Source: a virus. Taken from it: a stretch of DNA of 22,048 nucleotides. Positions 1-22,002 of the stretch are shown here, one piece after another (positions within the stretch are counted from its first letter, which is position 1; each line of letters opens with the position of its first letter). The translations under genes and the position numbers were made by a program. The stretch lies in the IMG/VR virus record IMGVR_UViG_3300044729_001036, positions 1 to 22,048 of that record. One strand, given 5' to 3'. The notes below the pieces were generated by a model. The model was given only the letters and a program-made list of their open reading frames with translations, had not been told where the DNA came from and did no database searches.

Positions 1-217
1 AGCCGCGTAATTTGGCATAGTCTTGCAATGCGCTGCCGGTCTTCCCGGTTTGCCAAACGCACACCTCCCGCCTCGCCTCGTCGCGCTCGCGCCTCGCCTC
101 GCGCAAGGCCCGCCATAGCGCAGCCTCGACCGGATTCGCGCACTCGCTGCGCGTGGCCGGGATCGTGACCTGTGACGCTTCGTCGGTCGCTGGGTCTAGC
201 GGTTGATGATTTGTCAC
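1..217 (-). CDS. N-terminal part of an unrecognised early protein (runs off the window)
   Basis: An open frame starts with GTG at 217 and stays open to the window edge (72 codons seen). The GTG overlaps the TGA of the upstream nuclease gene by 4 bases (GTGA, 214-217), the same coupling used across this genome. The peptide starts MTNHQPLDPATDEASQV and includes a charged, probably helical stretch (ALWRALREARRERDEARREV). That suggests a short coiled coil, but I do not recognise the family. Its position directly after a RecE-like nuclease suggests a DNA-metabolism or early-region role, which is inference only. The C-terminus lies outside the window. Confidence 0.6.
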   Translation of the reverse strand, partial: MTNHQPLDPATDEASQVTIPATRSECANPVEAALWRALREARRERDEARREVCVWQTGKTGSALQDYAKLRG

Positions 218-1065
218 GCTGCCACCTGTCCTTCCTGCAGCTGCCGACGCTTCCACGCTGGAATGCCAATGGCCACAACCTTGTCAGGGTGCGACGGCCA
301 ATGGTTGCTATCAATGCACTCTTTCCAAATCTTGAGTGATCGATCGACCTGATGGTCGTACAGGTCAATGACCTCATCCTCTAGCCGATAAACAGCCACT
401 CCAGGTTCGTCTTCGTAGTCTGTGTTTGTCTCAATTGCGACAAACATAAAGTGCTTGAAATCAAGGTGAGCCAATTTGCACACGCGCCGATAAGCAGCCG
501 CCTGCACTCCGTATCCCCAGTGCTCAACGGCACGCTCAAAACTGTCTTTATCAGCTGGGAAGGAAGTGGTCTTGATATCCACAACGATCCCATCGCAATA
601 GGCGTCAAGCCTTGCCTTTGTTGGCACGATGTCGTCAGCGAAAATCGAAACCTCCCGTTGCTGGCACTTCTGCAGCAGGGCCGTGGCAGTTTTGCACGCG
701 TCGAATGCTTCCTTCATTCGCCGCAGCTGCTCGCCTTGGTCGGGCGTGAGCACAGTGCGACCGGCCGCGGTCTCCTGAAACGACGCCCAGCGCTCCTTGC
801 CTTCCTTGTAGCGCCGATCCACATCGGGCGCGATCGCAATCTGATTCAGGAAGTTGTGCGGCTCAAGGATTGCGGCGTGCAAAGCCGTGCCCAGCGCCTG
901 CGATGCGTCCTGCTTCCGACGCTTCAACTTGTTCTTGGCCTTGCGAGGAGTCAATGTGATGAGGTCACGGACCGTGGTCGACCCGATGGCATCGACCGCG
1001 TGGTACTCGGCCGCTGGCATCCCGTGCACGATGCGCCTGCGAATTAGATCGCTGAGTTCGTGCAT
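214..1065 (-). CDS. RecE/exonuclease VIII-like PD-(D/E)XK nuclease
   Basis: This 283-residue protein resembles the PD-(D/E)XK exonucleases annotated as putative exodeoxyribonuclease VIII (DUF3799/RecE C-terminal domain type). Visible motifs are GTALHAAILEP at residues 59-69, the conserved N-terminal signature with H63 or nearby; R152-x-D154 in KARLDAYCD; the catalytic D163-I-K165 in VVDIKTT; and Q188-AA-AY192, the QxxxY motif IV of RecB-type nucleases. The expected activity is processive degradation of one strand at double-strand ends, giving 3' overhangs for phage recombination. RecE-type enzymes usually work with a single-strand annealing partner such as RecT; none is visible here and it could lie beyond position 1. 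The start at 1065 overlaps the preceding HTH gene by 22 bases. Family assignment is fairly secure; biochemical activity is inferred. Confidence 0.8.
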   Translation of the reverse strand: MHELSDLIRRRIVHGMPAAEYHAVDAIGSTTVRDLITLTPRKAKNKLKRRKQDASQALGTALHAAILEPHNFLNQIAIAPDVDRRYKEGKERWASFQETAAGRTVLTPDQGEQLRRMKEAFDACKTATALLQKCQQREVSIFADDIVPTKARLDAYCDGIVVDIKTTSFPADKDSFERAVEHWGYGVQAAAYRRVCKLAHLDFKHFMFVAIETNTDYEDEPGVAVYRLEDEVIDLYDHQVDRSLKIWKECIDSNHWPSHPDKVVAIGIPAWKRRQLQEGQVAA

Positions 1066-3235: not shown

Positions 3236-3710
3236 TCACCACGCCCTTCGCAGCCTCCAGCGCGGTCTCTGCGCTGCCTCCAATACCTTCAACGGCCTTG
3301 AAGGTTCCGATCGGACAAGAAACGCCAGCGAGCGTGAGTTTCACGCTGAGTTGCGATCGTTGGTTGGCCGGGCACCCGCACTTCGTGCAGAACCCGACGC
3401 CGCCCTCGTCCTTCACGCCGTTGAACACGTCCACTCGCCCAGGGCACGCCATGCACGCCCGGATGCGCTCTTCCACAACGGCCGCTGGAGCAGGACCCTG
3501 TATCGCGTGCTTCGCCTCAGTCTTGAGATAGTTCGCGACCTTGGATCCGACTCCCTGCTTGGCTGCTGCACGGCGCTTCGCCTCGATCTCACGCTGCTTG
3601 CGCATGTGCTCGGCGGCATCGACGTGTGAGCCCATGATCCGCTGAACAATCTCGCGCCGCTCCTGCTGCGTCTCGATGGGCGCCGGTTTGTAGTACCAGA
3701 CCTTTGTCAT
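3198..3710 (-). CDS. Cys-cluster (zinc-ribbon-like) phage protein
   Basis: The 170-residue protein begins at ATG 3710, overlapping the stop of the 1080-residue gene as ATGA (3707-3710). Residues 15-60 are strongly charged and helical (ETQQERREIVQRIM and further on). The C-terminal half holds a Cys cluster: C86-x2-C89, then C108-x2-C111-x-C113 in GFCTKCGCP, and C132-P-I-G-T-F. The pattern C-x2-C, C-x2-CGC, CP-x-G-[KT]-[WF] is a recurring small module in phage and bacterial proteins, often near glycan-related or tail-fibre genes, and probably binds a metal. It is the last gene of the structural operon and converges with the plus-strand membrane gene. Assembly of, or a partnership with, the Cys-rich neighbour is possible but unproven. 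Confidence 0.7.
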   Translation of the reverse strand: MTKVWYYKPAPIETQQERREIVQRIMGSHVDAAEHMRKQREIEAKRRAAAKQGVGSKVANYLKTEAKHAIQGPAPAAVVEERIRACMACPGRVDVFNGVKDEGGVGFCTKCGCPANQRSQLSVKLTLAGVSCPIGTFKAVEGIGGSAETALEAAKGVVTSVVAQLRKALS

Positions 3711-6700
3711 CCGTTGAAGTGCGAATAGTCGCTGGTTGTCTCGAAGTCTTGGACGTGCTCGGTGCAGTCGATGCAGAGGCCGAGCGGCAATGGATCCATG
3801 CACTCGGTCGCACCGACATGCCCGCACCAGCAGTCCTGCGGATCCGTGATGACCCAGACCTTGTTGCCGCTGATCGTCTGCCACGAGCCGATGGCGCTGT
3901 TCCTCGTCGTGTTCGGCGCTGGCGCCGAGCCGCCGATCTTGGTGGTGGTCGGCACTCGCGTCCACGTCGGGTAGGCCGGGCAGTCGCACGGCCCGTTGAG
4001 GCGAGGATCACAGTCGCAGTTTGGATCCTCAGCAGGGTCGCAGCAGAACGCAGGATCCTCCGGGTTCGTGACTGCAGGATCGCAGCACGGCGTCTCGCTG
4101 GTGGGATTCTCCTCCAGCGTCTCGCACGTCAAGCACACCCGCGGCCAGGGGGGGCAAGGATCCCACAGGCTTCCCCAGATGTGAAGCATGTGCTCGGTGC
4201 GAACCTCCGCGCAGGTCTGCTGCAGCGGCTCCCGCGGATCCTCGCACGGCGTCGCGCACTCGCCGAACTCGTTCTCGGTGCCAGGGCAACCGTTCGTCGT
4301 GTAATCGCACACCTCGTACTGCGTTTCGTCCTTGCCGTAGGTCGTGGGCCCGGGCTGCGCGATGCTGTTGTTGGTCTTCTCGACGCGCTGGAGGTTTCCT
4401 CCGACCAGCTCGTAGGTCCGGTGGTCTGGACGGATGACCGCGAACGCCATGCGCGTGCTCGCGACGCTGCGCGGCGGGTGGTACATGCCGAAGGTGGACC
4501 CGTAGTACGAGTAGCCCTGGTCAACCGTCGCCGGTGTACAGGTGCCCGTCCACGGGTTGGCCTTCATCGTGGCGCTGCTGCAGGGCTGGTTGACACCCAC
4601 GCAGCAGGCACCCTTCCAGACATGGAAGCAGTCCGGGTTGCACGTCGGGCCCGACCCGTTGAGCGGGTTTCCTTGGTCGAACGTGTGCTGCCAGTTGTGT
4701 TCCCACGGCATGCCGAACAGCGTCCCCAGCACCTTATCGATCTGGTCGTAGACGCCGTTCACGCTGTACCCGATTGCATTGTTCAAGCAGTCCTGCGAGT
4801 GGTACGGCACCACGACCACGGGATATCCCGGGCTGGGAGCGATCTGCCCGCTCGTTCCGCCACCACCTTCGCATGCGCAGCAGTGGCAGACGTTGCCCTT
4901 GCGGTTGAAGGCATCGCCGACTCCGTTACGCACTCCCATGTGCCACGGCCCCCACGGCTTCGAGCCCATCCGGCCCCAGCTCCACGCAGTCGGCTCGACT
5001 GAGCTGCAGACGCCTGGCGTGTCCTGCAGGTAGAAGTCGCGGTACTGAGCCCGGTAGGAGTTGTCGTAGTTGTACTTGTCCAGCGTCAGCGAGTAGATGC
5101 ACCCGTAGCTGAAGACGCCGCCGTTGGGGATCGCGAACTGTCGCAGCGGCCCGCAGTGGCGCGTGTCCTCGCCACAGTCCTTGCACTTCTGCGCCGCGGC
5201 GCTTGGCACTGGCGTACAGTCTCCAAACGCGACGCCCTGATAGTCGAGGCCCACCGGCGCACTGTTCCAGTGGGTCGTGTTGGTGCCGCCGTGGATGCCA
5301 GCGCAGTAGAACTGCACCGGGTAGTCGTACTTCGCTTCCTTGCCGTAGTCGTTCTGGCTGCCGTGCGTCAGGCTGTAGGTGGTCAGCCCAGGGCACAGAT
5401 CGTTGCAGCTGCTCCCTTGCGGATGTGCGGTCACGCAGTTCGGGTTGCCGCCGCCAGCGGGTGGCTCAAGGGTGTCGAACACTCGCGTGCGTGAGTTGCC
5501 CCAGCCGAACTTCAGATCGCCACCGTTCCAGACCGGGTTGCCCTGGCGCACCTGCTCGGCGCTTGTGAATCGCCCATTGAGTCCGAGTTCAGCCTTCGCC
5601 CAGTTGGGGTCGTAGCCGAAGCGCTCGGTCGCCATGTTGGCGCCGACGCATCCGATGCCCTCCAGCAGGGTGACTTTGCCAAGACCGAAGCCACAGCCGT
5701 TGTCGATGCACGTCGTGACGATGCCGCCGCCGTTGTCGTAGTCAAACTTCTGGTCCGCGGCGCAGTTGCATGTGAGCGTTCCGCCGCCGCCTGTTGCATG
5801 GGTAGTGTTCGCGTTGAACACGTCGATCCACTGATCGGCCAGACAGTCTCGGCAGTTGGATCGCCCATCGGTCTGCCCGGTGGGGCAGCTTCCGTTGCTG
5901 TTCGTGTTGCGCGTCGTGATGACCTGCCCGGTCCTGCGCATGGCGACAGCGAAATCCTTCTTGATCTCGAGGTCGCAGCAGGACTTCACACCGTCGCCAT
6001 AGAGTTGATTCTGTGCGCTGAACACGAACTCGCGCCAGCACTTCTCGATGTAGTCGGTGCTCCACGGTCCCGCGGGGGGACCTGCGTCCTCGCATGTGCA
6101 TGCGGGGTCGAACGCCTGCGTGGCTGGATCGGGGTCTGTCGCGTCACGCCTCGGGAATTGGACGTTTATGGATGGAAGCGCGGTCATCGCCTCCACGTTG
6201 AGTTCCATCGGCAAATGCGGGTCCGTCTCGACGCCGAGGTCGAACATCGGAAGGCATGGCTTCTGCCCGGAGTGCCACTCCTCAAGGCGGTCGATGTGCA
6301 GGTTGTAGGTGACCGTCTCGCTGCTGGTGTCGTAGGCGCCATCGAGCGCTGGCTTGAAATACGCAGCGTTGTCCGTAGCCACGGCGTCGATGTCCGTGAC
6401 GATCGGGAGCGCCTTCGTGTGCGGGTCGATCCGTGGCACAGGCGGGCTCATCAGGATGTCCGTCCACCCGTTCACCACGTCCGCCACAGCGGGGTCTCCC
6501 CAGCAGACCACGGTGCCATCGTTGAAGGTGACTGCGGTCGTGCTGTATCCCGCGTGCAGACCGACGATCTTCTTGAGGTTCGCGTTGGCCGGATCAGTAA
6601 GGTTTCCCTTGCTCGAGGTCGTCGGGACGTTGCACTGTCCCATCGTGTTGAGTCCCCAGCATGCGATGGTGTGATCATCGTGGCGCACGACGCAGTGGTA

Positions 6701-6949
6701 TGCACCCGCCTCGATGTCGATCACGGGCTTGGAGTTGACAGCGTCTGGCACCGTGAGCGGGTGGCCGGTCGGGGGAGGCCCCGGGATCGTCTCGTACTCG
6801 CACGTTCCGGCGTTGTCGAGCTGCTGCACATTGCCGACGATGACGGTGACGGACCCGTCCGATGCCAGCATGATGAAGTGATACCAGCCGCCGCGAACCA
6901 ATCGCGGCTGCGACGTGACACTGCAGCAGCAGACCCGGTGGAGGCTCAC
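3707..6949 (-). CDS. 1080-residue Cys-rich protein with RCC1-like repeats, probable tail-tip or receptor-binding protein
   Basis: This is the largest gene in the window. It starts at GTG 6949, overlapping the previous stop as GTGA. Residues about 18-160 contain RCC1-like beta-propeller repeats: a degenerate one at 18-40 (RGGWYHFIMLASDGSV), a clear one at 78-108 (IEAGAYHCVVRHDDHTIACW, then GLNTMGQ) and one at 128-152 (VGLHAGYSTTAVTFNDGTVV then CWGD). The rest matches no domain I know. It contains roughly 64 cysteines in all, many paired (CC, CxC), for example VCHCCAC near the middle and PCCDP, FCCDP and CDCDP near the C-terminus, with Gly/Asn/Tyr-rich segments between. No signal peptide is evident. 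The cysteines imply disulfides formed outside the cell or metal binding. Position at the end of the tail operon suggests the adhesin or tail-tip protein; this is inference. No collagen repeats or intramolecular chaperone were recognised. Confidence 0.7.
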   Translation of the reverse strand: MSLHRVCCCSVTSQPRLVRGGWYHFIMLASDGSVTVIVGNVQQLDNAGTCEYETIPGPPPTGHPLTVPDAVNSKPVIDIEAGAYHCVVRHDDHTIACWGLNTMGQCNVPTTSSKGNLTDPANANLKKIVGLHAGYSTTAVTFNDGTVVCWGDPAVADVVNGWTDILMSPPVPRIDPHTKALPIVTDIDAVATDNAAYFKPALDGAYDTSSETVTYNLHIDRLEEWHSGQKPCLPMFDLGVETDPHLPMELNVEAMTALPSINVQFPRRDATDPDPATQAFDPACTCEDAGPPAGPWSTDYIEKCWREFVFSAQNQLYGDGVKSCCDLEIKKDFAVAMRRTGQVITTRNTNSNGSCPTGQTDGRSNCRDCLADQWIDVFNANTTHATGGGGTLTCNCAADQKFDYDNGGGIVTTCIDNGCGFGLGKVTLLEGIGCVGANMATERFGYDPNWAKAELGLNGRFTSAEQVRQGNPVWNGGDLKFGWGNSRTRVFDTLEPPAGGGNPNCVTAHPQGSSCNDLCPGLTTYSLTHGSQNDYGKEAKYDYPVQFYCAGIHGGTNTTHWNSAPVGLDYQGVAFGDCTPVPSAAAQKCKDCGEDTRHCGPLRQFAIPNGGVFSYGCIYSLTLDKYNYDNSYRAQYRDFYLQDTPGVCSSVEPTAWSWGRMGSKPWGPWHMGVRNGVGDAFNRKGNVCHCCACEGGGGTSGQIAPSPGYPVVVVPYHSQDCLNNAIGYSVNGVYDQIDKVLGTLFGMPWEHNWQHTFDQGNPLNGSGPTCNPDCFHVWKGACCVGVNQPCSSATMKANPWTGTCTPATVDQGYSYYGSTFGMYHPPRSVASTRMAFAVIRPDHRTYELVGGNLQRVEKTNNSIAQPGPTTYGKDETQYEVCDYTTNGCPGTENEFGECATPCEDPREPLQQTCAEVRTEHMLHIWGSLWDPCPPWPRVCLTCETLEENPTSETPCCDPAVTNPEDPAFCCDPAEDPNCDCDPRLNGPCDCPAYPTWTRVPTTTKIGGSAPAPNTTRNSAIGSWQTISGNKVWVITDPQDCWCGHVGATECMDPLPLGLCIDCTEHVQDFETTSDYSHFNG

Positions 6950-13405: not shown

Positions 13406-13704
13406 GCCCACACCCTCATCGGAACCGCAGGCTGCGGATCAAGGATTGGCAGTTCCGCCAGCACCTCCGGCGGCAGTTCACCTGACACGCGCAGGTTCGC
13501 GTGGAAGCGCGAGTCGGTCACAGGCTCCTCGTCCACGATGCGGGTCACCGGGCCGATCCAGCCGAGATCAAGCCGGATGCCGTTGTAGTCGATCACGGTG
13601 CCGTCGATGATCTGCCCGTCCGTGTTTGAGATCGTGATGCCTGCCGCGAGGAACGCATTCGCCATCGCGGCCTCGGTGTTTGCTCGGAGGTAGTAGTCGA
13701 TCAT
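13402..13704 (-). CDS. Conserved small phage protein, 100 residues, function unknown
   Basis: ATG 13704 overlaps the fibre-gene stop as ATGA. The start MIDYYLRANTEAAMANAFLA and the end FHANLRVSGELPPEVLAELP with closing P-x-RVWA belong to a pattern I know from many tailed phages: an opening D-x-YL-A-TEAAM, a middle VDLG-IGPVTRI-like part, a WHANLR motif and an ending (A/V)-P-x-R-(V/I)-W-A, usually encoded next to structural or fibre genes. No biochemical role is established to my knowledge. Here it sits between the fibre and connector genes. Confidence 0.65.
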   Translation of the reverse strand: MIDYYLRANTEAAMANAFLAAGITISNTDGQIIDGTVIDYNGIRLDLGWIGPVTRIVDEEPVTDSRFHANLRVSGELPPEVLAELPILDPQPAVPMRVWA

Positions 13705-14822
13705 GCTGTGAGAGCCTGAAGGGTTGCGTTCGAGAGACGGGTGGGCCAATACTTGAACACAGCGATTGGGCCGAAGTTATAGCCAGCAGCGTTGACAGCA
13801 CTTCCACCAAGACTCACTCTCGTGAGAGATGATGCAACGGCTCCGTTAGTGTCGGTTGCCACCGCTCCACCATTCACGGATACCGCGAAGTCATTGGCTG
13901 CATATGCGGCACAGACCCGACCCGCGCTTGGTGATGTAGAACCAATTTGTGCGGTGAATGAGCCGCCAGCAAACACGTTGAACGCAACACCAGAACCCTC
14001 GAACATCTGATTGTTGCTGCCGCTGGCGGGAAGAAATGTGTATGCGCGATTTGATCCAGTGCTGATGCGGTCGCCGTAGCGGATCAAGATGGTGCCAGCG
14101 GAAGCGTTGAATCCAAAAGCGGTGCTGATGTTGTCGATCAAGCAATCATCCGCCGCCCGCTGCACGGTGCTTGCGCCCGTAGGGATGTACGAGGATGCGC
14201 CGGAGCCTGTCTCAAGTTGTGCGCCCCACATTTCGATGGCGTCGCCGCTCGTCACGATGCGGATTCCGACCCGATGATCGACCGTGTGCGTGAACGAATA
14301 CCGCGTCCAAGTTGATGTGATTGCCTGCGTAGTCCAGTTCGTACCGTTGTTCTGCGTGTATTGGATGTTCCCTGTACCAGTCACGCGGCGCAGCCACACG
14401 CTGAACGTCCGCTCTGACGATGTGCCGATGGCCGCAGCACGAATCACCGTTGCATTGCCCGCCGATGCCGTGAAGCGCACCGCAGTCGTTCCACCAGCCG
14501 GATCAGCATTTCCTGTGGCTCGCGTGATGCTGGTATCCGTCCACGCAGCAGCGTTGAAGTCCTCGCTGTATGTCATCAGGTTCGTCGCACTACCCTCGAT
14601 CAGCAGCCCGCGCGGCGCAAGCGTGGTCGGGTCGTAGTCGAAGCGAGGGACATTCGTGCCAGCCGTTGTCACCAGCCCGCTGCTGTTGATGTAGGTGCTC
14701 GTCGCGCTGCTCCTGCTGAACGTGAACCGCGAGTCCAGCGAACTCATCGACGTGAAGTCCAGCGAGAGCGTGGAGCCGTCGCCGCGGCGAAGCATGAATG
14801 GGACGTAGCTGTTGCCCCTCAT
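13701..14822 (-). CDS. Head spike/fibre-like protein, 373 residues
   Basis: ATG 14822 overlaps the upstream stop as ATGA and has AAGGGG upstream. Residues about 30-90 carry the signature FTFSRSSATSTYINSSGLVT, then VPRFDYDPTT, then RGLLIEGSATNLMTYSEDF, found in proteins annotated as phage head spike/fibre-domain proteins. A carbohydrate-binding-like beta sandwich follows (SVWLRRVTGTGNIQYTQNNG), and the C-terminal part is a second beta-rich, concanavalin/LamG-like domain ending IAVFKYWPTRLSNATLQALT. Located between the capsid and connector genes, it is probably a head fibre or decoration that helps bind host surface glycans. No membrane segment is present. Confidence 0.7.
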   Translation of the reverse strand: MRGNSYVPFMLRRGDGSTLSLDFTSMSSLDSRFTFSRSSATSTYINSSGLVTTAGTNVPRFDYDPTTLAPRGLLIEGSATNLMTYSEDFNAAAWTDTSITRATGNADPAGGTTAVRFTASAGNATVIRAAAIGTSSERTFSVWLRRVTGTGNIQYTQNNGTNWTTQAITSTWTRYSFTHTVDHRVGIRIVTSGDAIEMWGAQLETGSGASSYIPTGASTVQRAADDCLIDNISTAFGFNASAGTILIRYGDRISTGSNRAYTFLPASGSNNQMFEGSGVAFNVFAGGSFTAQIGSTSPSAGRVCAAYAANDFAVSVNGGAVATDTNGAVASSLTRVSLGGSAVNAAGYNFGPIAVFKYWPTRLSNATLQALTA

Positions 14823-15019
14823 CGCCGAGCCCCTTTCTTCACAGCCCGACAGCACTCAGGCTTCACGCATGCCTCCGGCTGGTCCGGGTGAAACTCTGCG
14901 CGCTCGGCCCAGCCAAGCGACATGAACTCGATGGCTCGCGTGTCGGGCAGGTCGTAGACCTGGCCTTGCGCGTAGCCATCGTCCGCCATCCCGACTGATT
15001 CGAGCATCTTGACCTTCAT
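14819..15019 (-). CDS. 66-residue small head-module protein
   Basis: ATG 15019 has GAGG with 5-base spacing. An upstream in-frame GTG at 15076 would put a strong hairpin inside the gene and is less likely. The sequence MKVKMLESVGMADDGYAQGQ, VYDLPDTRAIEFMSLGWAE follows a common small phage fold: an opening MKVK-L strand, a G-x-x-Y-x-x-G-x-V-x-D-L hairpin, then a helix with A. The last 20 residues are Cys- and Lys/Arg-rich (EACVKPECCRAVKKGARR). The gene follows the capsid genes and overlaps the fibre gene by 4 bases. Function unknown. Confidence 0.6.
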   Translation of the reverse strand: MKVKMLESVGMADDGYAQGQVYDLPDTRAIEFMSLGWAERAEFHPDQPEACVKPECCRAVKKGARR

Positions 15020-15084: not shown

Positions 15085-16398
15085 TCAGCTGGCCGCACCG
15101 CGCAGGTAGCTGAACGCGCTCATGTTGGTGAGCTTGATGTCCACGCGGTTGGTGGCGACGTAGCCCACCTCGTCCGACGCGGCATAGAGCTCGTTGAGCA
15201 CGCGCAGGGTGTAGCCCGAGCGCTCGCCGATGACGCAGTAGTCGAACGCACCGATCATGCCGCAGATGCCGCCGCCAGAGGCGAAGCCCTGGCTGGTGGT
15301 TGCGGGAGCCGGGACGTAATGGCTGCAGTAGACCGGGATGCCCATGATCCTGTCGGGCTCGCCCAGCTGGCCCGAAGGCTGCCAGAAGTAGCCGAGCTGC
15401 GTCGTGGCAGCCGTGGCCGCCGCGTTGCGGATGTAACCGAGCGCGGTATCAGACAGCAGGATCGCCGCGCTCGGGTGCGAGCGGTACTCGCGTCCGAGGC
15501 TGTACACCCATTCGATCACTTCCTTCGCGGTGATGGCCGTGTTCGAGGCGACCTGCTTGCCAACGCTCGGGCCGTTTGATGCGATGGTCAGGATGCCGGT
15601 CGGCTGGCCGGAAGCGCCGGTGCCCACGAGCATTCCCTGCTCCTCGGTCTGCGCGAACGACTTGGCAAACGAGTTGGTGATGATCGACTCGACCGAGAAG
15701 CCAGCGCCACGAGCGGGAGCGTCATCAAGCAGTTCGCGGCTGACGCGGGCGAGGCCCGCCAGCTTGCGAGGCTGCAGCACCGTGCTGCTGAAGGTCGGAT
15801 TGGTCGCAAGCGAATCGGTGATCGATGCGGCTTCCGCGGTCCAGTTGACGCTGGCGAGCGCACGCTCGATCACGATGTCGCGCTTCCACGAACCCAGCGG
15901 CATGACGGTCGAGATCTGACGCAAAACCACCATCTTCTGCAGGATCTCGTACATGCGGTTGTGGAACTCGGTCGGCGGGATGATGTCGCCCAGGCCCGTG
16001 CCGCCCTCGCTGAGAGCGCGCATCTCGGCCACCGGCGTGTGCTCGCCGCGCTTGAGGTAGCTCTCGTACGCCTTGATGTACTCGTCGCTGCAGCGGAAGT
16101 CGCCGAAGCGAGGAGCCCGCTGGTTGGTCTCCTTGGCAGCAGGAGCCTTGCGCAGCTCGGGCGCGTCGGGGCCCACATCCACCCAGCCCGTCTTCTTGTC
16201 CTCAGCGGCAAGGTTCATCAGGGTGTGGTTGCGCTCGATCTGCTTCTGGACGCGGCGGTACTCGGCGTCCAGCTCGTCGAAGCGCTTGGTCTCGTCGGCG
16301 CTCATGTCGCCGCCGTTGGCGTTGGCCGCCTCGATCATCTGCTGCATCTCGCGGTAGCGGGCATCGTTGCCCTCCCGCAGTTCCTTGTAGTTCTTCAT
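15085..16398 (-). CDS. Major capsid protein (HK97 fold) with N-terminal delta domain
   Basis: The 437-residue protein starts at ATG 16398 behind AAGGAAAGGA. Residues 1-65 form a charged, helical scaffold-like delta domain (MKNYKELREGNDARYREMQQ), followed by a linker to about residue 100. The mature HK97-fold part then begins near residue 105, with EMRALSEGGTGLGDIIPPTE (about 125-144), the N-arm and E-loop region, ELLDDAPARGAGFSVESIIT and the P-domain segment LVGTGASGQPTGIL. The prohead protease encoded upstream would remove the delta domain. It is clearly homologous to the preceding gene. Being complete, it is probably the principal shell protein. Confidence 0.85.
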   Translation of the reverse strand: MKNYKELREGNDARYREMQQMIEAANANGGDMSADETKRFDELDAEYRRVQKQIERNHTLMNLAAEDKKTGWVDVGPDAPELRKAPAAKETNQRAPRFGDFRCSDEYIKAYESYLKRGEHTPVAEMRALSEGGTGLGDIIPPTEFHNRMYEILQKMVVLRQISTVMPLGSWKRDIVIERALASVNWTAEAASITDSLATNPTFSSTVLQPRKLAGLARVSRELLDDAPARGAGFSVESIITNSFAKSFAQTEEQGMLVGTGASGQPTGILTIASNGPSVGKQVASNTAITAKEVIEWVYSLGREYRSHPSAAILLSDTALGYIRNAAATAATTQLGYFWQPSGQLGEPDRIMGIPVYCSHYVPAPATTSQGFASGGGICGMIGAFDYCVIGERSGYTLRVLNELYAASDEVGYVATNRVDIKLTNMSAFSYLRGAAS

Positions 16399-16425
16399 GG
16401 GTTCCTTTCCTTGCGTGCGGGTGGA

Positions 16426-17451
16426 TCAGGCGCGGTTCACGTTGAGCACGCCACTGGTGTGAAGCAGGCAACCGTCCGCTCGCACGCTGGCGACGAATGC
16501 CGTTTGGTCGTTTCCTGCATAGGTCTCGTTGAGACGTGTGACGCTGAAGCCTCGGAAAGAGGTCGCCAGCAGGTACTTGGTCGGGTCGAAGAACATGACC
16601 AACGTGTCACCGGCCGCTGGCGTCGTGTTGCTCAGGCGGTGGTAGACGGTCGGCAAGCCCTCGACCGACGTGCCTTCCTGCATGTTTCCGGCAAACAGCG
16701 GGAACAGCGGGGGGAAGAACGTCGAGTCGAACGAACCCGTGAGTCGGCTGTTGATGACCGCCACCGAGTTCTTCCAAGACTCAAAGGCCAGCGGCGAGAG
16801 CGCGCTGTTGGTGGATGCCCAGGCTGCGGCAAGGATGTCGCTGGGCTTGTTCGTCGTTGCGATGCCGGTGCTCGCCGTGCGGCTATACGCCTTGGCCGAG
16901 TTGAATGCGCCCTGGCAACCGGCACTGCCGTCGCCGATCAGGATCTGCGAATTGATCTGCGTGATCAGTTCGGCAACAAGTTCAGCCCGAACAAACTCTT
17001 CGATACTGGCCGCCGCGGTCGAGTCTTCGAGGATCTCGTTGGTGACCTTGGTCCAGGCGGTGACCTTCTTGAGACTGAAGGTGTAGGTCGTGCTGCCACC
17101 GCTTCCCTGCTGAGGCAGGGCAAGAGCGGTACCAGAGGTCCAAGCCTCCGTGCCGATGTTGGTCTCGGTCTGGTTCGTGTTGACCGTTGCGTCCGCGACG
17201 TTGATCGGTACGGTGAACTTGCCAGCGGTCGTCACCTTGCGGACGCGGCTCAGGATCGTGTCCTGGCGCATCGAGAGTTCGATGAAGTCCGACCAGCCCG
17301 TGGGGGCGATGACGTTGCCAAGACCCGTGCCGCTGTTGGAAAGCGCACGAACTTCGGCGTCAGTCAGGCGGCTTGTGCCGTGTCGCAGGTAGTTCTGGAA
17401 CAGGCTGCGGTATTCCTCGCCGCCGCGGTCCAGGATTGATTTGTCAGCCAT
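16426..17451 (-). CDS. Second HK97-fold capsid protein, lacking a delta domain
   Basis: The 341-residue protein starts at ATG 17451, preceded by GGAGA. The open frame extends upstream only through a terminator-like sequence to a TTG. Residues 12-60 (EEYRSLFQNYLRHG, then EVRALSNSGTGLGNVIAPTG) align with residues about 107-145 of the downstream capsid protein, and NEILEDSTAAASIEEFVRAE and ILIGDGSAGCQGAFN match its ELLDD and LVGTGASGQPTGIL segments. It therefore begins where a mature capsid protein would begin and has no scaffold domain. It may be a penton or minor shell protein, or a co-assembling partner of the full-length one. It ends 27 bases before its paralogue. Confidence 0.8.
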   Translation of the reverse strand: MADKSILDRGGEEYRSLFQNYLRHGTSRLTDAEVRALSNSGTGLGNVIAPTGWSDFIELSMRQDTILSRVRKVTTAGKFTVPINVADATVNTNQTETNIGTEAWTSGTALALPQQGSGGSTTYTFSLKKVTAWTKVTNEILEDSTAAASIEEFVRAELVAELITQINSQILIGDGSAGCQGAFNSAKAYSRTASTGIATTNKPSDILAAAWASTNSALSPLAFESWKNSVAVINSRLTGSFDSTFFPPLFPLFAGNMQEGTSVEGLPTVYHRLSNTTPAAGDTLVMFFDPTKYLLATSFRGFSVTRLNETYAGNDQTAFVASVRADGCLLHTSGVLNVNRA

Positions 17452-17482
17452 CGCAGTCTCCGGTTGAGCGCTGCGACGGGCC

Positions 17483-17549
17483 AAAAAAATGGCGCACTGC
17501 CGCAGCGGTTGGGGGGTTCAGTTCCAAACGCCTGCAGGCCAGTGCGCCA
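17483..17549 (-). terminator. Strong intrinsic terminator just upstream of the first capsid gene
   Basis: On the minus strand TGGCGCACTG (17549-17540) pairs with CAGTGCGCCA (17499-17490), followed directly by seven T (17489-17483). The 40-base interior folds further: CC/GG, GCAG/CTGC, CG/CG and TTGG/CCAA pair in order with single-base bulges or mismatches, leaving an 11-base loop. The stem is therefore about 22 bp with small defects. It should stop minus-strand transcripts coming from the portal and protease genes, 31 bases before the capsid ATG. Confidence 0.75.
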
Positions 17550-17632
17550 CGAGGGCTGTCACGGAGGCTTGCCTCGCTCGCAGTCGGATCGCACTAGGCG
17601 ATGGCCCGCTGCTTGCGGTGCTATTCGATTAG

Positions 17633-17660
17633 GAGGCATTCTCACACGCCAGAATGCCTC
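17633..17660 (-). repeat. Perfect 10-bp hairpin after the protease gene
   Basis: GAGGCATTCT and AGAATGCCTC pair perfectly around an 8-base loop (GGCGTGTG on the minus strand). It is located 12 bases past the protease stop. The sequence after it (CTAATCG) has no T-tract, so it is unlikely to terminate alone; an RNA-stability, processing or protein-binding role is possible. Confidence 0.6.
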
Positions 17661-17672
17661 TGCAAGACCCCA

Positions 17673-18197
17673 TCACATCGGCGGGGCCAGTCGCAGGGTC
17701 CGACGCACCGGATCGCTCTGGGCGGCTTCCCGGGCCTCCACACTGGTCGTGGGGTTGGCTGGGAAGGTCACGAGCGACAGCTCCAGCAGGTCGGCGTCGA
17801 GGATCACCCGCACGGGCTTCCCGTCACCCTTCTCGTAGCGCTCATCGCGCACCATGAAACCGAACGAGCACTGGCTCACCACGCCGCTCTCGACGAGCGC
17901 GTGAGCCTCGCGGGCGGTCGCGGTGTCAGGCAGGGTGGCCTCGAAGCCGAGGCCCTTCTCGTCGGTCCAGATCCGCAGGTTGCCAGCCCGGACTCGGGCC
18001 AGCGGCTTGCCGGTGTCGTGGTTCCACAGCAGGGCGATGTCTCCGGCGTCCTCAAGGGCCCGGTCGAACGCCGTCGGGTCCACGCGCTCCATCTCGCGAC
18101 CCATGTCGTAACTCTCCCACGTCACCGCATAGCCGCGCACCTTCAGGTCGGCGGCCTCGCTCAGGGTGCCCAGGGCACGGGTTTCAGGCTTGTGCAT
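17673..18197 (-). CDS. HK97-family prohead protease
   Basis: The 174-residue serine protease matures the prohead by removing the capsid delta domain and itself. It starts at ATG 18197 with GGAGG and 6-base spacing, overlapping the portal gene by 14 bases. The likely catalytic residues are H60 in LLWNHDTGKPLAR, S111 in VSQCSFGFMV, and E139 in LLELSLVTFPANP; these correspond to the H/S/E triad of the family, and the LVTFPANP motif is characteristic. Length is typical. Notably, its substrate gene is separated from it by a terminator. Confidence 0.9.
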   Translation of the reverse strand: MHKPETRALGTLSEAADLKVRGYAVTWESYDMGREMERVDPTAFDRALEDAGDIALLWNHDTGKPLARVRAGNLRIWTDEKGLGFEATLPDTATAREAHALVESGVVSQCSFGFMVRDERYEKGDGKPVRVILDADLLELSLVTFPANPTTSVEAREAAQSDPVRRTLRLAPPM

Positions 18198-19959
18198 TGG
18201 TGTCCTCCAGAATGGGTTCGTTGAGCACTTCGATGCGCACCAGGTCGAGCAGCTCGGTAGCCGCTGAACCCGGGAGCGTGTTCCAACCAGCCAGCGAATC
18301 GCTCAGGTGTCCGATTTCGCCGACACTGCGACGCAGGTGCCGAGCGTGGCGCACGAGCGCCTCGTCGAGCACCTTCACCGCCTTCGCCTCGTCGCCGAGC
18401 AGGCGACCCAGACCGGCCACCACGTCGCGCAGGTCGGCGTCAAGGCAGTCGATGGGGGGTGCCCACTTGTCGAGCTTGGCTTGGGTCCGCTGCTTGAGCA
18501 GGTACTCGCTCACCCGGGTGAGGTGCCGCTTGTAGGCGCCCTCAACCGCAGGACGCACGGCTGCGATAGCCGCGGTGCGATGGGCCGCCGCAAGCAGCTC
18601 GCGGGCGCGCTCGGTCTGCTCCTCGGCGTCCTCGGCGTCGATGTCCACGCTTGCTGGCACCTCCTCGACCTCCTCGGGCTCAAGGTCCTCAGACGGCGGC
18701 ACGGAAGGGGCCGTCGGCTGCTGGAAGCCTGGCGTTGCGGTGTTGAGCGGTACGCGGATCTGGTCGCCGCCATCGACAGCCTTGAGCCCCTCTCGTGCGC
18801 GGGCCTCGTTGACCGTCAGAACACCGTTCGTGATGCCTACCGCGTAGGCGCCGAATCGAGTGCTCATGTCAGCCCGCAGCAGGCTGTCGAAGTTGATGCG
18901 GGTGCAGTACGGCTCGCCGCGCATGATCAACTTGCGCGCCGCCTCCTGCTCCAGCCTTGATGCCCACGATGCCAGCGCGTGCTTGACGAACTGAGAGTCA
19001 CTCTGTTCTGCTGCGTTGTATGACGTGCTGTCGGTGTCGCCGATCTTGTGGGCAGGCACCTGAAACATCGCCGCGATCTGCTGGCGGCAATACTTGCGCA
19101 TCTCGATCAGGTCGTTGTCCTTCATCGAGTTCGTGATGGGCTTGTATTCGAGCCCGTCTTCGAGCACGGCCACGCGGCCAGCCCGGCTGGCGCCGCCGTG
19201 GGCAGCCTGCCACGCCTCGCGCAGGCGCTTCGATGCGTCCGGGCTCAGACGCCCAGGCATCTTGAGCGTGCCCGCTGGGACTGCGTTGTTCGAGATGAAC
19301 CGCGTGATGAACTCGGTGATCTCCAACTCCAGAGCGATCACGTCGCGCATCAGGTGAATCGGAGGCACACCGAGCACGCCATCGAAGGTGGTGGCGCCAA
19401 CGACGTGAAACATGTCGTAGGCCCGGAATCGGCGCATCGCCTTCTCGGCGTTGCTGCCCGTGTACTTGCCAGTCCAGACCTGGTAGTAGGGCTGGTTCTG
19501 ACCGTCGCGGTAGACCGCAACGTAGTCAGGTCGCAGGGGCTCCAGCGAGACCGGGCGCCCGGTCGCATCGCGGTAGATGTACGAGTAGTGGTTCCCGGTC
19601 AGCAGCACGTCGCTGATGACCTTCTCGCGCCATTGCAGAGCGCCGACATCCTCGTTCACCTCGTAGTTCAGCAGGCTGTAGAGCGGGTGATTGTTCTCCG
19701 CGATCTTTCCATCGTCGGTCTCCTGCAGCACGTCCCACGGGAGGCTGGCGATGCTTGATGCGATCAGTCGCACGCAGGCGTAGACGCTCGGGCTCTCCAG
19801 CGCTCTCGCGGGCGTGATGGCCTCGCCGGTGTACGAGTACGACTGAACGTAACTCTGCACGGCGCCGCTTGAGGATTGCCCGATCGGTACGGTGTCCTCG
19901 AAGTCAGAGCGCGGTGGGGTGGGGCCGAGATAGCGGCGCACGATGTCGATCAGACCCAT
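18184..19959 (-). CDS. Portal protein (HK97 family)
   Basis: ATG 19959 (after AGGAAAGGA) gives 591 residues and overlaps the TerL stop by 10 bases. The portal core spans about residues 50-400: SPSVYACVRLIASSIASLPW, LLTGNHYSYIYRDATGRPVS, FHVVGATTFDGVLGVPPIHL and ITNSMKDNDLIEMRKYCRQQ followed by IAAMFQVPAHKIGD. All are HK97 portal hallmarks. Residues from about 430 form an acidic Pro/Glu/Asp-rich linker followed by a 140-residue helical extension (ARELLAAAHRTAAIAAVRPA onward) not found in the basic 400-residue form. The dodecamer forms the DNA entry vertex and docks TerL. Confidence 0.9.
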   Translation of the reverse strand: MGLIDIVRRYLGPTPPRSDFEDTVPIGQSSSGAVQSYVQSYSYTGEAITPARALESPSVYACVRLIASSIASLPWDVLQETDDGKIAENNHPLYSLLNYEVNEDVGALQWREKVISDVLLTGNHYSYIYRDATGRPVSLEPLRPDYVAVYRDGQNQPYYQVWTGKYTGSNAEKAMRRFRAYDMFHVVGATTFDGVLGVPPIHLMRDVIALELEITEFITRFISNNAVPAGTLKMPGRLSPDASKRLREAWQAAHGGASRAGRVAVLEDGLEYKPITNSMKDNDLIEMRKYCRQQIAAMFQVPAHKIGDTDSTSYNAAEQSDSQFVKHALASWASRLEQEAARKLIMRGEPYCTRINFDSLLRADMSTRFGAYAVGITNGVLTVNEARAREGLKAVDGGDQIRVPLNTATPGFQQPTAPSVPPSEDLEPEEVEEVPASVDIDAEDAEEQTERARELLAAAHRTAAIAAVRPAVEGAYKRHLTRVSEYLLKQRTQAKLDKWAPPIDCLDADLRDVVAGLGRLLGDEAKAVKVLDEALVRHARHLRRSVGEIGHLSDSLAGWNTLPGSAATELLDLVRIEVLNEPILEDTNAQA

Positions 19960-21578
19960 TCGATGTTCCTTTCCTCGTAGACGCTTGGGCCGGTCTCGGT
20001 CTTCTGGTGCAGCCAGGTCGCGAGAGCGGTGACGAGAGCCGCGAGCGGGTCGATGCGCTCGGTGCTCGATGCCTTGGATGGCTTCACGTTTCCAGCCGGG
20101 TCGATGTCGAGCACGCAGTTCGACACGGCCCAGGTGAGCAAGTGGTTGTCGTTGTGGCGCAGCTTGCGGCCGAGCACGAGCGCTTCGAGGCGCTTGGCTG
20201 GCTCGCTCAGGGTGCGGTAGCCCTGGCGTACCTCGATCATGGGGACGCCCTCGGCGAAGAGCTGCGACGCCAGCTGCGTCGCGCCCCACGGGTCGTAGCC
20301 AACCGCTTTGACGTTATAGCGCTTCACCAGATCGCGGATCTTGTGCCCGATGAAGTCGTAGTCCACGACCGCGCCAGGCGTCGGCTGCAGCCATCCCTTG
20401 GCGGCCCAGACCTCGTAGGGTGCGCGGTCGCTGCGGCTGCGCCGGCGGATGCCATCCTCTGGGCACCACGACCAGGACAGCACATCGACCGACCCGTCCG
20501 CGAGCGGGAAGCACAGGCTCAGGCTCGACAGGTCCGTTGTGGTCGAGAGGTCAAGGCCCATCCAACACTCGCGCCCCAGCAGCGCATCAGGGTCGCACCC
20601 GCTCGAATAGCAGGCGTTCCACGAGTCAGCGCTGATCCAGACCTGCTTGCTCTCGGTCCACTGGCACAGGTAGAGCTGCCGGAAGGCGGTCTCGTAGGAG
20701 GGCAACTCCTTCGCCTTGGAGCACTCGGCCGCGAGGAAATCCTCGGACACCGTGATCCCGAGCGACGGGTTCGCCTTGCGCCACACCTTCGGGCTCTTCC
20801 AGTCATCATCGACGGGTGCGCCAAACAGCACCGGCATGAACTTCGGGTCCTCGACCACGCCCGAGCGCACCTTCTCCGCGTAGTCGTGCAGTTCCCAGCA
20901 CAGGCTGTTGCGGTCATGCCCGGCAGTCGTGATCGACACCCGAAGGGGCTGCTGGCGGGCGCCCATCGAGGTCACCATCGCGTCGTACAGGTCACGGTCT
21001 GGGAACGTGTGCACCTCGTCGAACACGATGCAGCTCGCGTTCTTGCCGTGCTTCGTGCCTGCGTCGCTCGAGAGGATCTCGAGTTTCGAGTTGCCAAAGG
21101 TGATCACGTTGCGGAACACCTCGACGCTCTTCGCGAGCGCCGCGTTCGACTGCACCATCTGCCTGCATGCGTCGCCGACGATCGCGGCCTGGTCGCGGGC
21201 GCTCGCGCAGCAGTAGACCTCGGCGCCCGGCTCGCGATCGCACAGCAGCATGTAGAGCGCGAGCCCGGCTACCAACGTGCTCTTGCCGTTCTTGCGCGGC
21301 ACCTCGATGTAGGCGTCGGTGAAGCGCCGCGTCCCGTCGGCCTTCTTCCAGCAGAGCAGGGCACCCAGCAGGTCGCGCTGCCACGGCAGCAGGGAAAACG
21401 CCTTGCCAGCCCACACACCCTTCTGGTGCGTCAGCAGGCCGAAGAAAGTGTCGAGGCGCTGCAGCTCGTCCACATCGAACCAGTCGCCCTTCGCGGCGGT
21501 GGCCGAAGCACTGAAGCCCGCAACAGGTGCGAGCCTAGGCCGTCTTGGGTTTGAGGAGCGCTTCGATGCCCGAGGCAT
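19950..21578 (-). CDS. terL: Terminase large subunit
   Basis: This is the DNA-packaging motor ATPase and nuclease, Terminase_1 (YmfN/HK97-type) family, 542 residues from ATG 21578; an upstream TTG at 21605 has no ribosome binding site. Walker A is RKNGKST at about residues 95-101 and Walker B is CIVFDEVHTF with D187-E188. The C-terminal nuclease acidic residues are in GLDLSTTTDLSS (D343), VGYDPWGATQL and IDPLAALVTAL. LLPWQRDLLGALLCW before the Walker A is the adenine-binding region. The start lies 44 bases inside the TerS gene. The ATPase and nuclease motifs all look intact. Confidence 0.92.
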   Translation of the reverse strand: MPRASKRSSNPRRPRLAPVAGFSASATAAKGDWFDVDELQRLDTFFGLLTHQKGVWAGKAFSLLPWQRDLLGALLCWKKADGTRRFTDAYIEVPRKNGKSTLVAGLALYMLLCDREPGAEVYCCASARDQAAIVGDACRQMVQSNAALAKSVEVFRNVITFGNSKLEILSSDAGTKHGKNASCIVFDEVHTFPDRDLYDAMVTSMGARQQPLRVSITTAGHDRNSLCWELHDYAEKVRSGVVEDPKFMPVLFGAPVDDDWKSPKVWRKANPSLGITVSEDFLAAECSKAKELPSYETAFRQLYLCQWTESKQVWISADSWNACYSSGCDPDALLGRECWMGLDLSTTTDLSSLSLCFPLADGSVDVLSWSWCPEDGIRRRSRSDRAPYEVWAAKGWLQPTPGAVVDYDFIGHKIRDLVKRYNVKAVGYDPWGATQLASQLFAEGVPMIEVRQGYRTLSEPAKRLEALVLGRKLRHNDNHLLTWAVSNCVLDIDPAGNVKPSKASSTERIDPLAALVTALATWLHQKTETGPSVYEERNIEWV

Positions 21579-22002
21579 CCCCCTTCGACTTTCCTGAACC
21601 CACAAGACCGACGCGCGACGCAGGAGTCAGCCCGAACTCCTTCGACAGACGCATGACCTCGGCCCTCGCCTCGTCACGCGCCTTCTTCCACGGAGAGATA
21701 TACGACCCCTGCGCCGTTTCAAGTACCAGCCCCTTTTCCCGGCAGGCAGCAGCCATGCGCTCAAACTCGGCCTGGTACATCGCCAGCGCGTTGTGCGCCT
21801 TGTAGTCCTCGCAGGCGTACAGACCCATGCGGCGCAGGTCCTCGATGATGCGATCGAAGTGTCGGCGAGCGATGTCATCCGACGCGACATCGGGCAGCAT
21901 CAGCGGCGTCCCGTCGCTGCCTTGCGGCTCCGGCGCCCTGGCGTGGCCCTTCTCGCTGCCTCGAAACTTCAGAATCGCGGTAGGTACTGGTCTGCGGCCC
22001 AT
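21535..22002 (-). CDS. terS: Terminase small subunit (P27 family)
   Basis: The 155-residue protein starts at ATG 22002 behind GGGAGG with 8-base spacing. It fits the P27/Terminase_4 family: a basic N-terminus with ILKFRGSEKGH (GNPGK-like position), a central ARRHFDRIIEDLRRMGLYAC helix pair, and the typical C-terminal signature GSYISPWKKARDEARAEVMR followed by LSKEFGLTPASRVGL. It recognises the packaging start (cos or pac) on the phage DNA and loads TerL. It is the first complete gene of the late operon in this window. Confidence 0.9.
   Translation of the reverse strand: MGRRPVPTAILKFRGSEKGHARAPEPQGSDGTPLMLPDVASDDIARRHFDRIIEDLRRMGLYACEDYKAHNALAMYQAEFERMAAACREKGLVLETAQGSYISPWKKARDEARAEVMRLSKEFGLTPASRVGLVGSGKSKGDASGIEALLKPKTA

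Follow-up and report, generated by a model that had tools for sequence, protein, structure and literature searches.

In most HK97-type phages, one protein makes up both the pentons and the hexons of the head. Shells of two HK97-fold proteins are already known from T4, a satellite and encapsulins. In T4, gp23 forms the hexons and gp24 the pentons (PMC13185644). SaPIbov5 encodes the capsid protein Ccm, which shares 24% identity with the capsid protein gp33 of phage phi12 and has a delta domain of 87 instead of 128 residues; cleavage occurs after Lys87 in Ccm and after Arg128 in the phi12 protein, and Ccm is found in pentamers only and forms no capsid when alone (PMC8569155). The Family 2B encapsulin of Streptomyces lydicus has syntenic shell genes, one component of which is unable to form shells alone (PMC12407261). 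As to the delta domain itself, the scaffold tower of Pseudomonas phage D3 has been interpreted as an N-terminal coiled coil of 70-80 residues, and the adjoining P-domain-associated part, the PDAR (residues 81-113), consists of a helix, a turn and a strand and rests on the capsid domain (PMC12749128).

The DNA analyzed here, called the window in the following, is a 22,048-base IMG/VR virus record from an uncultured phage that is known here from sequence alone. It carries two adjacent capsid genes, MCP1 and MCP2. As the scaffold tower is found on MCP2 only and the pair is conserved, the heads of this phage and its relatives are probably built from two subunits with divided labour. The pair resembles Ccm and the phi12 protein, since in both cases two HK97-fold capsid proteins are about 24-25% identical and one of them has a shortened delta domain with a cleavage site. 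However, Ccm is satellite-encoded and redirects the head of its helper, whereas MCP1 and MCP2 are adjacent genes of a head operon that belongs to the phage itself, and the two invariably come as a pair; the delta domain retains 87 residues in Ccm and only about 35 in MCP1, and the pentamer position shown for Ccm is a proposal for MCP1. With gp23/gp24 of T4 the locus shares a phage-encoded pair of HK97-fold shell proteins, but T4 has a large prolate head, while here an HK97-type delta domain is fused to MCP2 within an HK97-like module with an S78 protease. HK97 gp5 and phage D3 are alike in gene order, fused delta domain, PDAR, protease and the alignment of the cleavage site, and they differ in having one capsid gene for pentons and hexons. 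The S. lydicus encapsulin also has two HK97-fold shell genes in one operon and in conserved order, each type being nearest to its own kind, and an added domain in the E-loop. It is, however, a bacterial compartment, its E-loop domain has a cyclic-nucleotide-binding fold, and no scaffold tower is restricted to one partner. Unlike the shell genes of two-component encapsulins, which lie beside cargo genes and without packaging machinery, the MCP genes have terL, portal, protease, head-tail connector and tail genes as neighbours. What appears to be new, judged from these comparisons, is a phage lineage with an obligatory tandem pair, one member of which lacks the tower but keeps the PDAR. No such pair was found in 50,697 phage records, and the open-licence papers searched yielded no description of any phage that carries a tandem of HK97 capsid genes.

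The head module and the fold of its two capsid proteins

The head module lies on the minus strand in HK97 order, terS-terL-portal-S78 protease-MCP1-MCP2, followed by a small protein, a PHROG 5939 tail-type protein and a head-tail connector. The terminase large subunit (19950..21605, minus strand, as are all features below) matches PF20441 and PF03354, the portal protein (18184..19956) matches PF04860 with an E-value of 2.5e-97, and the S78 prohead protease (17673..18197) matches PF04586 with an E-value of 2e-41. This protease is encoded upstream of MCP1 in 49 of the 49 loci with enough sequence, and it is the likely processor of both capsid proteins.

MCP1 (17451-16426) is an HK97-fold capsid protein of 341 aa whose delta domain has no coiled-coil tower, and MCP2 (16398-15085) an HK97-fold major capsid protein of 437 aa with an N-terminal delta, or scaffold, domain. 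Both match PF05065 across the capsid domain and far above the curated cut-off (E 2e-22 for MCP1, 1e-41 for MCP2), as well as PHROG 10, 'major head protein'. The two proteins are 25% identical (E 3e-12), and a profile comparison relates them with 99.9% probability (E 2e-35) over 305 columns. AlphaFold2 models were built on alignments of relatives and reached moderate confidence (MCP1: pLDDT 71, pTM 0.72; MCP2: pLDDT 70, pTM 0.59). Their best Foldseek matches are phage and gene transfer agent (GTA) capsids, where capsids missing among the matches listed were not counted as absent. Upon structural realignment (VIA), MCP1 gave Z-scores of 15.9 with the GTA capsid, 15.1 with D3 prohead I and 14.9 with HK97 prohead I, and MCP2 gave 20.2 with the GTA capsid. 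The latter, Rcc01687 of Rhodobacter capsulatus, is the best match for MCP2 in the PDB by structure and by sequence and the best structural match by Z for MCP1, differing from both as a single capsid protein; a sequence search of the PDB with MCP1 returned no match. Given these models, the HK97 fold of both proteins is not in doubt. The initial annotation had placed two tandem HK97-fold capsid genes at this position, strongly diverged but with common motifs, and both statements are borne out: neither protein folds otherwise, and the motifs RALSNSGTGLGNVIAPT / RALSEGGTGLGDIIPPT, EILED / ELLDD and LIGDG / LVGTG are present in the two genes.

Elsewhere in the window, the gene of the PHROG 5939 'tail protein' (13701-14831) has its place between those of MCP2 and the head-tail connector. 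Many relatives have it there too, while in others it was not detected; the protein could be a head fibre. A 1080-aa protein with RCC1-like repeats (3707-6949; PF25390, PF13540) is encoded behind the tail genes and is possibly a tail-tip or receptor-binding protein. A tyrosine integrase (PF00589) at 1476-2858 makes it probable that the phage is temperate. Scans of genome contigs with MCP1 did not find a host genome, and scans with MCP2 found only relatives in Bacillota at 28-32% identity and no host.

The delta domain is divided unequally

MCP2 has a complete delta domain according to helix prediction, as had been claimed for it. Its scaffold tower comprises residues 1-70 (16189..16398), in which residues 4-27 and 34-69 are predicted to form long helices, with a linker after the second, and its PDAR comprises residues 102-127 (16018..16095), with a helix at residues 105-120, and ends at the presumed cleavage residue Arg127. 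All MCP1 proteins lack the coiled-coil tower, and nearly all keep the PDAR. MCP1 residues 9-37 align with MCP2 residues 102-129; in the D3 and HK97 proheads, the segment aligned with them is the C-terminal part of the delta domain. In the structural alignment, MCP1 residue 10 and MCP2 residue 102 both fall on D3 residue 81, the start of the PDAR, and MCP2 102..436 aligns with D3 81..394 (VIA).

When the sequences are aligned with HK97 and D3, both MCP1 Arg35 and MCP2 Arg127 come to lie over HK97 Lys103, the residue that precedes the HK97 cleavage site. MCP1 thus keeps a propeptide of ~35 residues (17347..17451) with a presumed cleavage next to Arg35. The propeptide ends in an invariant E-x-R motif: Gly25, Glu33 and Arg35 are invariant in 25 diverse MCP1 proteins, and L37 is nearly so. 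The predicted cleavage sites would leave mature proteins of near equal length, about 306 aa for MCP1 and 310 aa for MCP2. The earlier view that the first gene starts at the mature N-terminus thus has to be corrected, as MCP1 begins about 35 residues before that point with a propeptide that aligns with the PDAR. The further suggestion that only one partner supplies the scaffold stands for the tower, which MCP1 lacks, and fails for the PDAR and the presumed cleavage site, which MCP1 keeps. By alignment and model, MCP1 has lost only the tower from its delta domain. As the propeptide would be useless in a mature shell and yet is conserved, MCP1 is presumably built into proheads and processed there.

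Conservation and evolution of the pair

Loci were gathered from IMG/VR in scans whose queries were single proteins, alignments and a motif of the leader described below. This yielded 75 distinct MCP2 proteins with MCP1 immediately upstream in the same tandem order, and the gap between the two genes is 12-103 nt in the 55 pairs measured. Where an MCP2 of this dual clade was found without MCP1, the end of the contig intervenes or the locus is L082, and where MCP1 was found without MCP2, the sequence stops inside MCP1 or a few hundred nt past it. L082 was rejected as a pair-less exception, because its upstream gene encodes a strongly diverged PF05065 protein. The same holds for L060 and L068, which had been flagged as lacking MCP1 due to a long open frame and do possess it. 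In L062 (5935-7240) MCP2 is split over three frames, by a sequencing error or a real break, and the upstream MCP1 is intact. Control relatives outside the dual clade (G042-G048) have a single capsid gene. The same pair was found in no phage of INPHARED, where the matches of MCP1 are single capsid genes at about 25% identity; the MCP1 type with a long E-loop has no match there, and the types of L100 and L082 match single capsid genes or tail fibres. From these loci, the pair is old and obligatory, and the expectation that relatives would carry it held for all that were examined, none of which has a decayed copy.

Compared with the nearest relatives at similar dS, dN/dS is 0.09-0.13 for MCP1 and 0.20-0.24 for MCP2, so that MCP1 is the more constrained of the two. 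MCP1 is kept with intact frames down to about 26-37% identity. By these measures, both genes are under purifying selection and neither is decaying; the decay of one copy is rejected by the dN/dS values and the intact frames. The two genes have a similar codon bias, with ENC values 7.9 and 8.3 below expectation, which thus does not identify MCP1 as a minor protein.

A maximum-likelihood tree computed from the capsid part, which is unrooted and is to be read as a three-way split, separates 25 MCP1 proteins (99/99), the MCP2 proteins of the dual lineage (99/95) and single-capsid phages (99/98), the last mostly of Bacillota. L100 is the deepest branch in the MCP1 clade and in the MCP2 clade. Such a topology would agree with a single ancient duplication from which the lineage started. 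A recent duplication is rejected, because the paralogues are 25% identical and form separate clades that each span all relatives.

Within the lineage, the two genes have not always travelled together. The core of MCP2 in L051 and L064 is 77-78% like that of the window, whereas their MCP1 is only 34-35% like the window's. Agreement between the MCP1 and MCP2 trees is rejected by the AU test (p 4e-4 for MCP1 and 5e-61 for MCP2, for sets that were picked after the trees had been seen). On these trees, MCP1 and MCP2 types have been reassorted between lineages, and as MCP1 types were swapped between MCP2 backgrounds, the interface must be tolerant. Relative to the window, reassortment is seen in L051, L064, L047 and L052. 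The breakpoints seem to lie near the PDAR; for example, the MCP2 of L021 is 90% identical to that of the window in the PDAR and 56% in the core.

The E-loop of MCP1

The E-loop region of MCP1 (residues 79-138; 17038..17217) is the place at which relatives carry added domains. By length comparison, it comprises 56-134 residues in MCP1 proteins and 46-50 in all MCP2 proteins. The MCP1 proteins of the L008 clade have in this region a repeat that they share with structural proteins of the virion and with tail proteins (PHROG 701 and others). The upstream gene of L082 carries, at a comparable position, a domain that resembles tail fibres (PHROG 9370; tail fibre of Leptospira phage LE3). Pfam searches with MCP1 and its relatives gave PF05065 only, with no cyclic-nucleotide-binding domain in the E-loop. 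The inserts within the genes at 4688-5935 of L008, 2601-3851 of L027, 6001-7248 of L031 and 2307-3527 of L082 are unrelated between two lineages and are seen in MCP1 only, never in MCP2. From this restriction we infer that MCP1 is the subunit that tolerates outer modules.

A structured leader before MCP1

The MCP1-MCP2 operon is preceded by a non-coding leader (17452..17672), which is recognized by a conserved gap, by alignment and by covariation. Between protease and MCP1, every locus that includes upstream sequence has a gap of 170-232 nt, apart from L100 (30 nt). A promoter-like element, TTGCAG-N16-GAGAAT, lies at 17665-17638, and its TTG and AAT are invariant in 17 aligned relatives; a simple consensus promoter scan did not call it. 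Further downstream follow an invariant terminator-like hairpin (17549-17540/17499-17490) with a T-run after it and an alternative, mutually exclusive hairpin (17507-17501/17475-17469) that is supported by three covarying pairs, with a score reached by 0 of 500 shuffles. There is also a possible antiterminator pairing, and a CUCCG anti-Shine-Dalgarno element (17566-17562) could pair with the Shine-Dalgarno sequence CGGAG (17462-17458). A leader motif of 17 fixed bases, used to scan viral contigs, occurred before MCP1 genes in 116 of 131 cases (among fetched, partly overlapping loci), and an Rfam search with the leader gave no match. From these sequence features, the leader looks like an attenuator-type element for the capsid operon.

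Proposed arrangement of the two subunits in the shell

A division of labour between the capsid paralogues, as the initial annotation had proposed, is well supported by the conserved pair, the purifying selection, the asymmetric scaffold and the different E-loop. We think that one operon would make two HK97-fold subunits for one head. MCP2 would be the principal subunit, which scaffolds the prohead with its tower and PDAR and forms the hexamers. MCP1, an ancient paralogue that has lost the tower alone, would be recruited into the same prohead via contacts of the capsid domain and the PDAR, and the single S78 protease would trim it at the same conserved Arg as MCP2. The scaffold towers would then come from MCP2 capsomers only, and MCP1 would occupy the pentameric vertices, where the tower may be dispensable and the longer E-loop can bear exposed modules. 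That MCP1 co-assembles with MCP2 in some form is very probable. Its position at the pentons is favoured because Ccm, the closest architectural analogue, fills pentamers only and because T4 splits pentons and hexons likewise, but we hold the penton position to be about evenly balanced. Against it, MCP1 evolves more slowly than MCP2 in close pairs, which is not the default for a rare vertex protein. For the best reading as a whole, a two-subunit shell in which MCP2 provides the hexons and the scaffold and MCP1 the pentons, we likewise see a roughly even chance.

The main rival is a mixed shell, in which MCP1 and MCP2 occur together within hexamers and perhaps pentamers, in a fixed or variable ratio, with the tower supplied in trans, for example as trimers under skewed hexamers. 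It is kept alive by the slow evolution and the codon bias of MCP1, as strong constraint and a high codon bias are what an abundant protein would have, and the nearly equal lengths of the mature proteins also suit it. Two-component Family 2B encapsulins indeed form mixed shells with irregular tiling (PMC12407261), and in the D3 prohead the tower under the eH hexamer type appears as two trimers (PMC12749128). However, the reassortment of MCP1 and MCP2 core types would be harder if every interface were common to both, and the restriction to MCP1 of E-loop insertions, which reach about 75 residues, suggests distinct positions, so that mixed capsomers are a possible but less likely arrangement. Their elaborated form would be an obligate two-subunit head whose capsomers contain subunits with and without a tower side by side, where the ratio of the genes under the structured leader RNA sets tower stoichiometry and head size and MCP1 offers, with its E-loop, an exchangeable platform for outer display; as a whole, this is likewise possible but less likely.

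Alternatively, MCP1 might be a shape or size switch that enters some particles only and gives alternative head sizes, or isometric versus prolate heads. Ccm works in this way when it replaces phi12 pentamers, and the leader with its promoter-like and terminator-like elements could regulate MCP1. But this leader precedes both genes, which are thus not separately controlled by it, and some relatives should have lost a switch protein, while MCP1 is never lost. As features of a satellite are also absent, the window containing terL, portal, protease and tail genes, we consider a switch improbable. It is still less probable, indeed very unlikely, that MCP1 forms something other than the DNA-filled shell, for instance a decoration or a compartment of the encapsulin kind. 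The delta tower is missing from encapsulins as well, and MCP1 has structural matches to encapsulin chains, but its closest ones are phage and GTA capsids. Moreover, MCP1 lies between protease and MCP2 wherever the sequence reaches, a context of cargo genes is absent, and MCP1 keeps the PDAR and the processing motif, which a compartment protein would not need. It is hardly credible that MCP1 has no separate role and is just a redundant or decaying copy, as only the duplication itself speaks for it, against intact frames at 26-37% identity, dN/dS of 0.09-0.13 and no relative without MCP1.

Significance for head assembly

With a two-subunit shell as the preferred reading, the two-protein HK97 shell would be an established lineage of environmental phages. 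In this pair, nature has also provided one delta domain with its tower and one without it, and has maintained both versions next to one another over a long period. The head module is small and could be expressed in E. coli, which would make it suitable for asking whether pentons need the tower and what sets the position of a subunit. Why most HK97-type phages make do with one protein for pentons and hexons, and which role the delta domain has at each position of the shell, is a general question of head assembly, on which these phages may thus bear.
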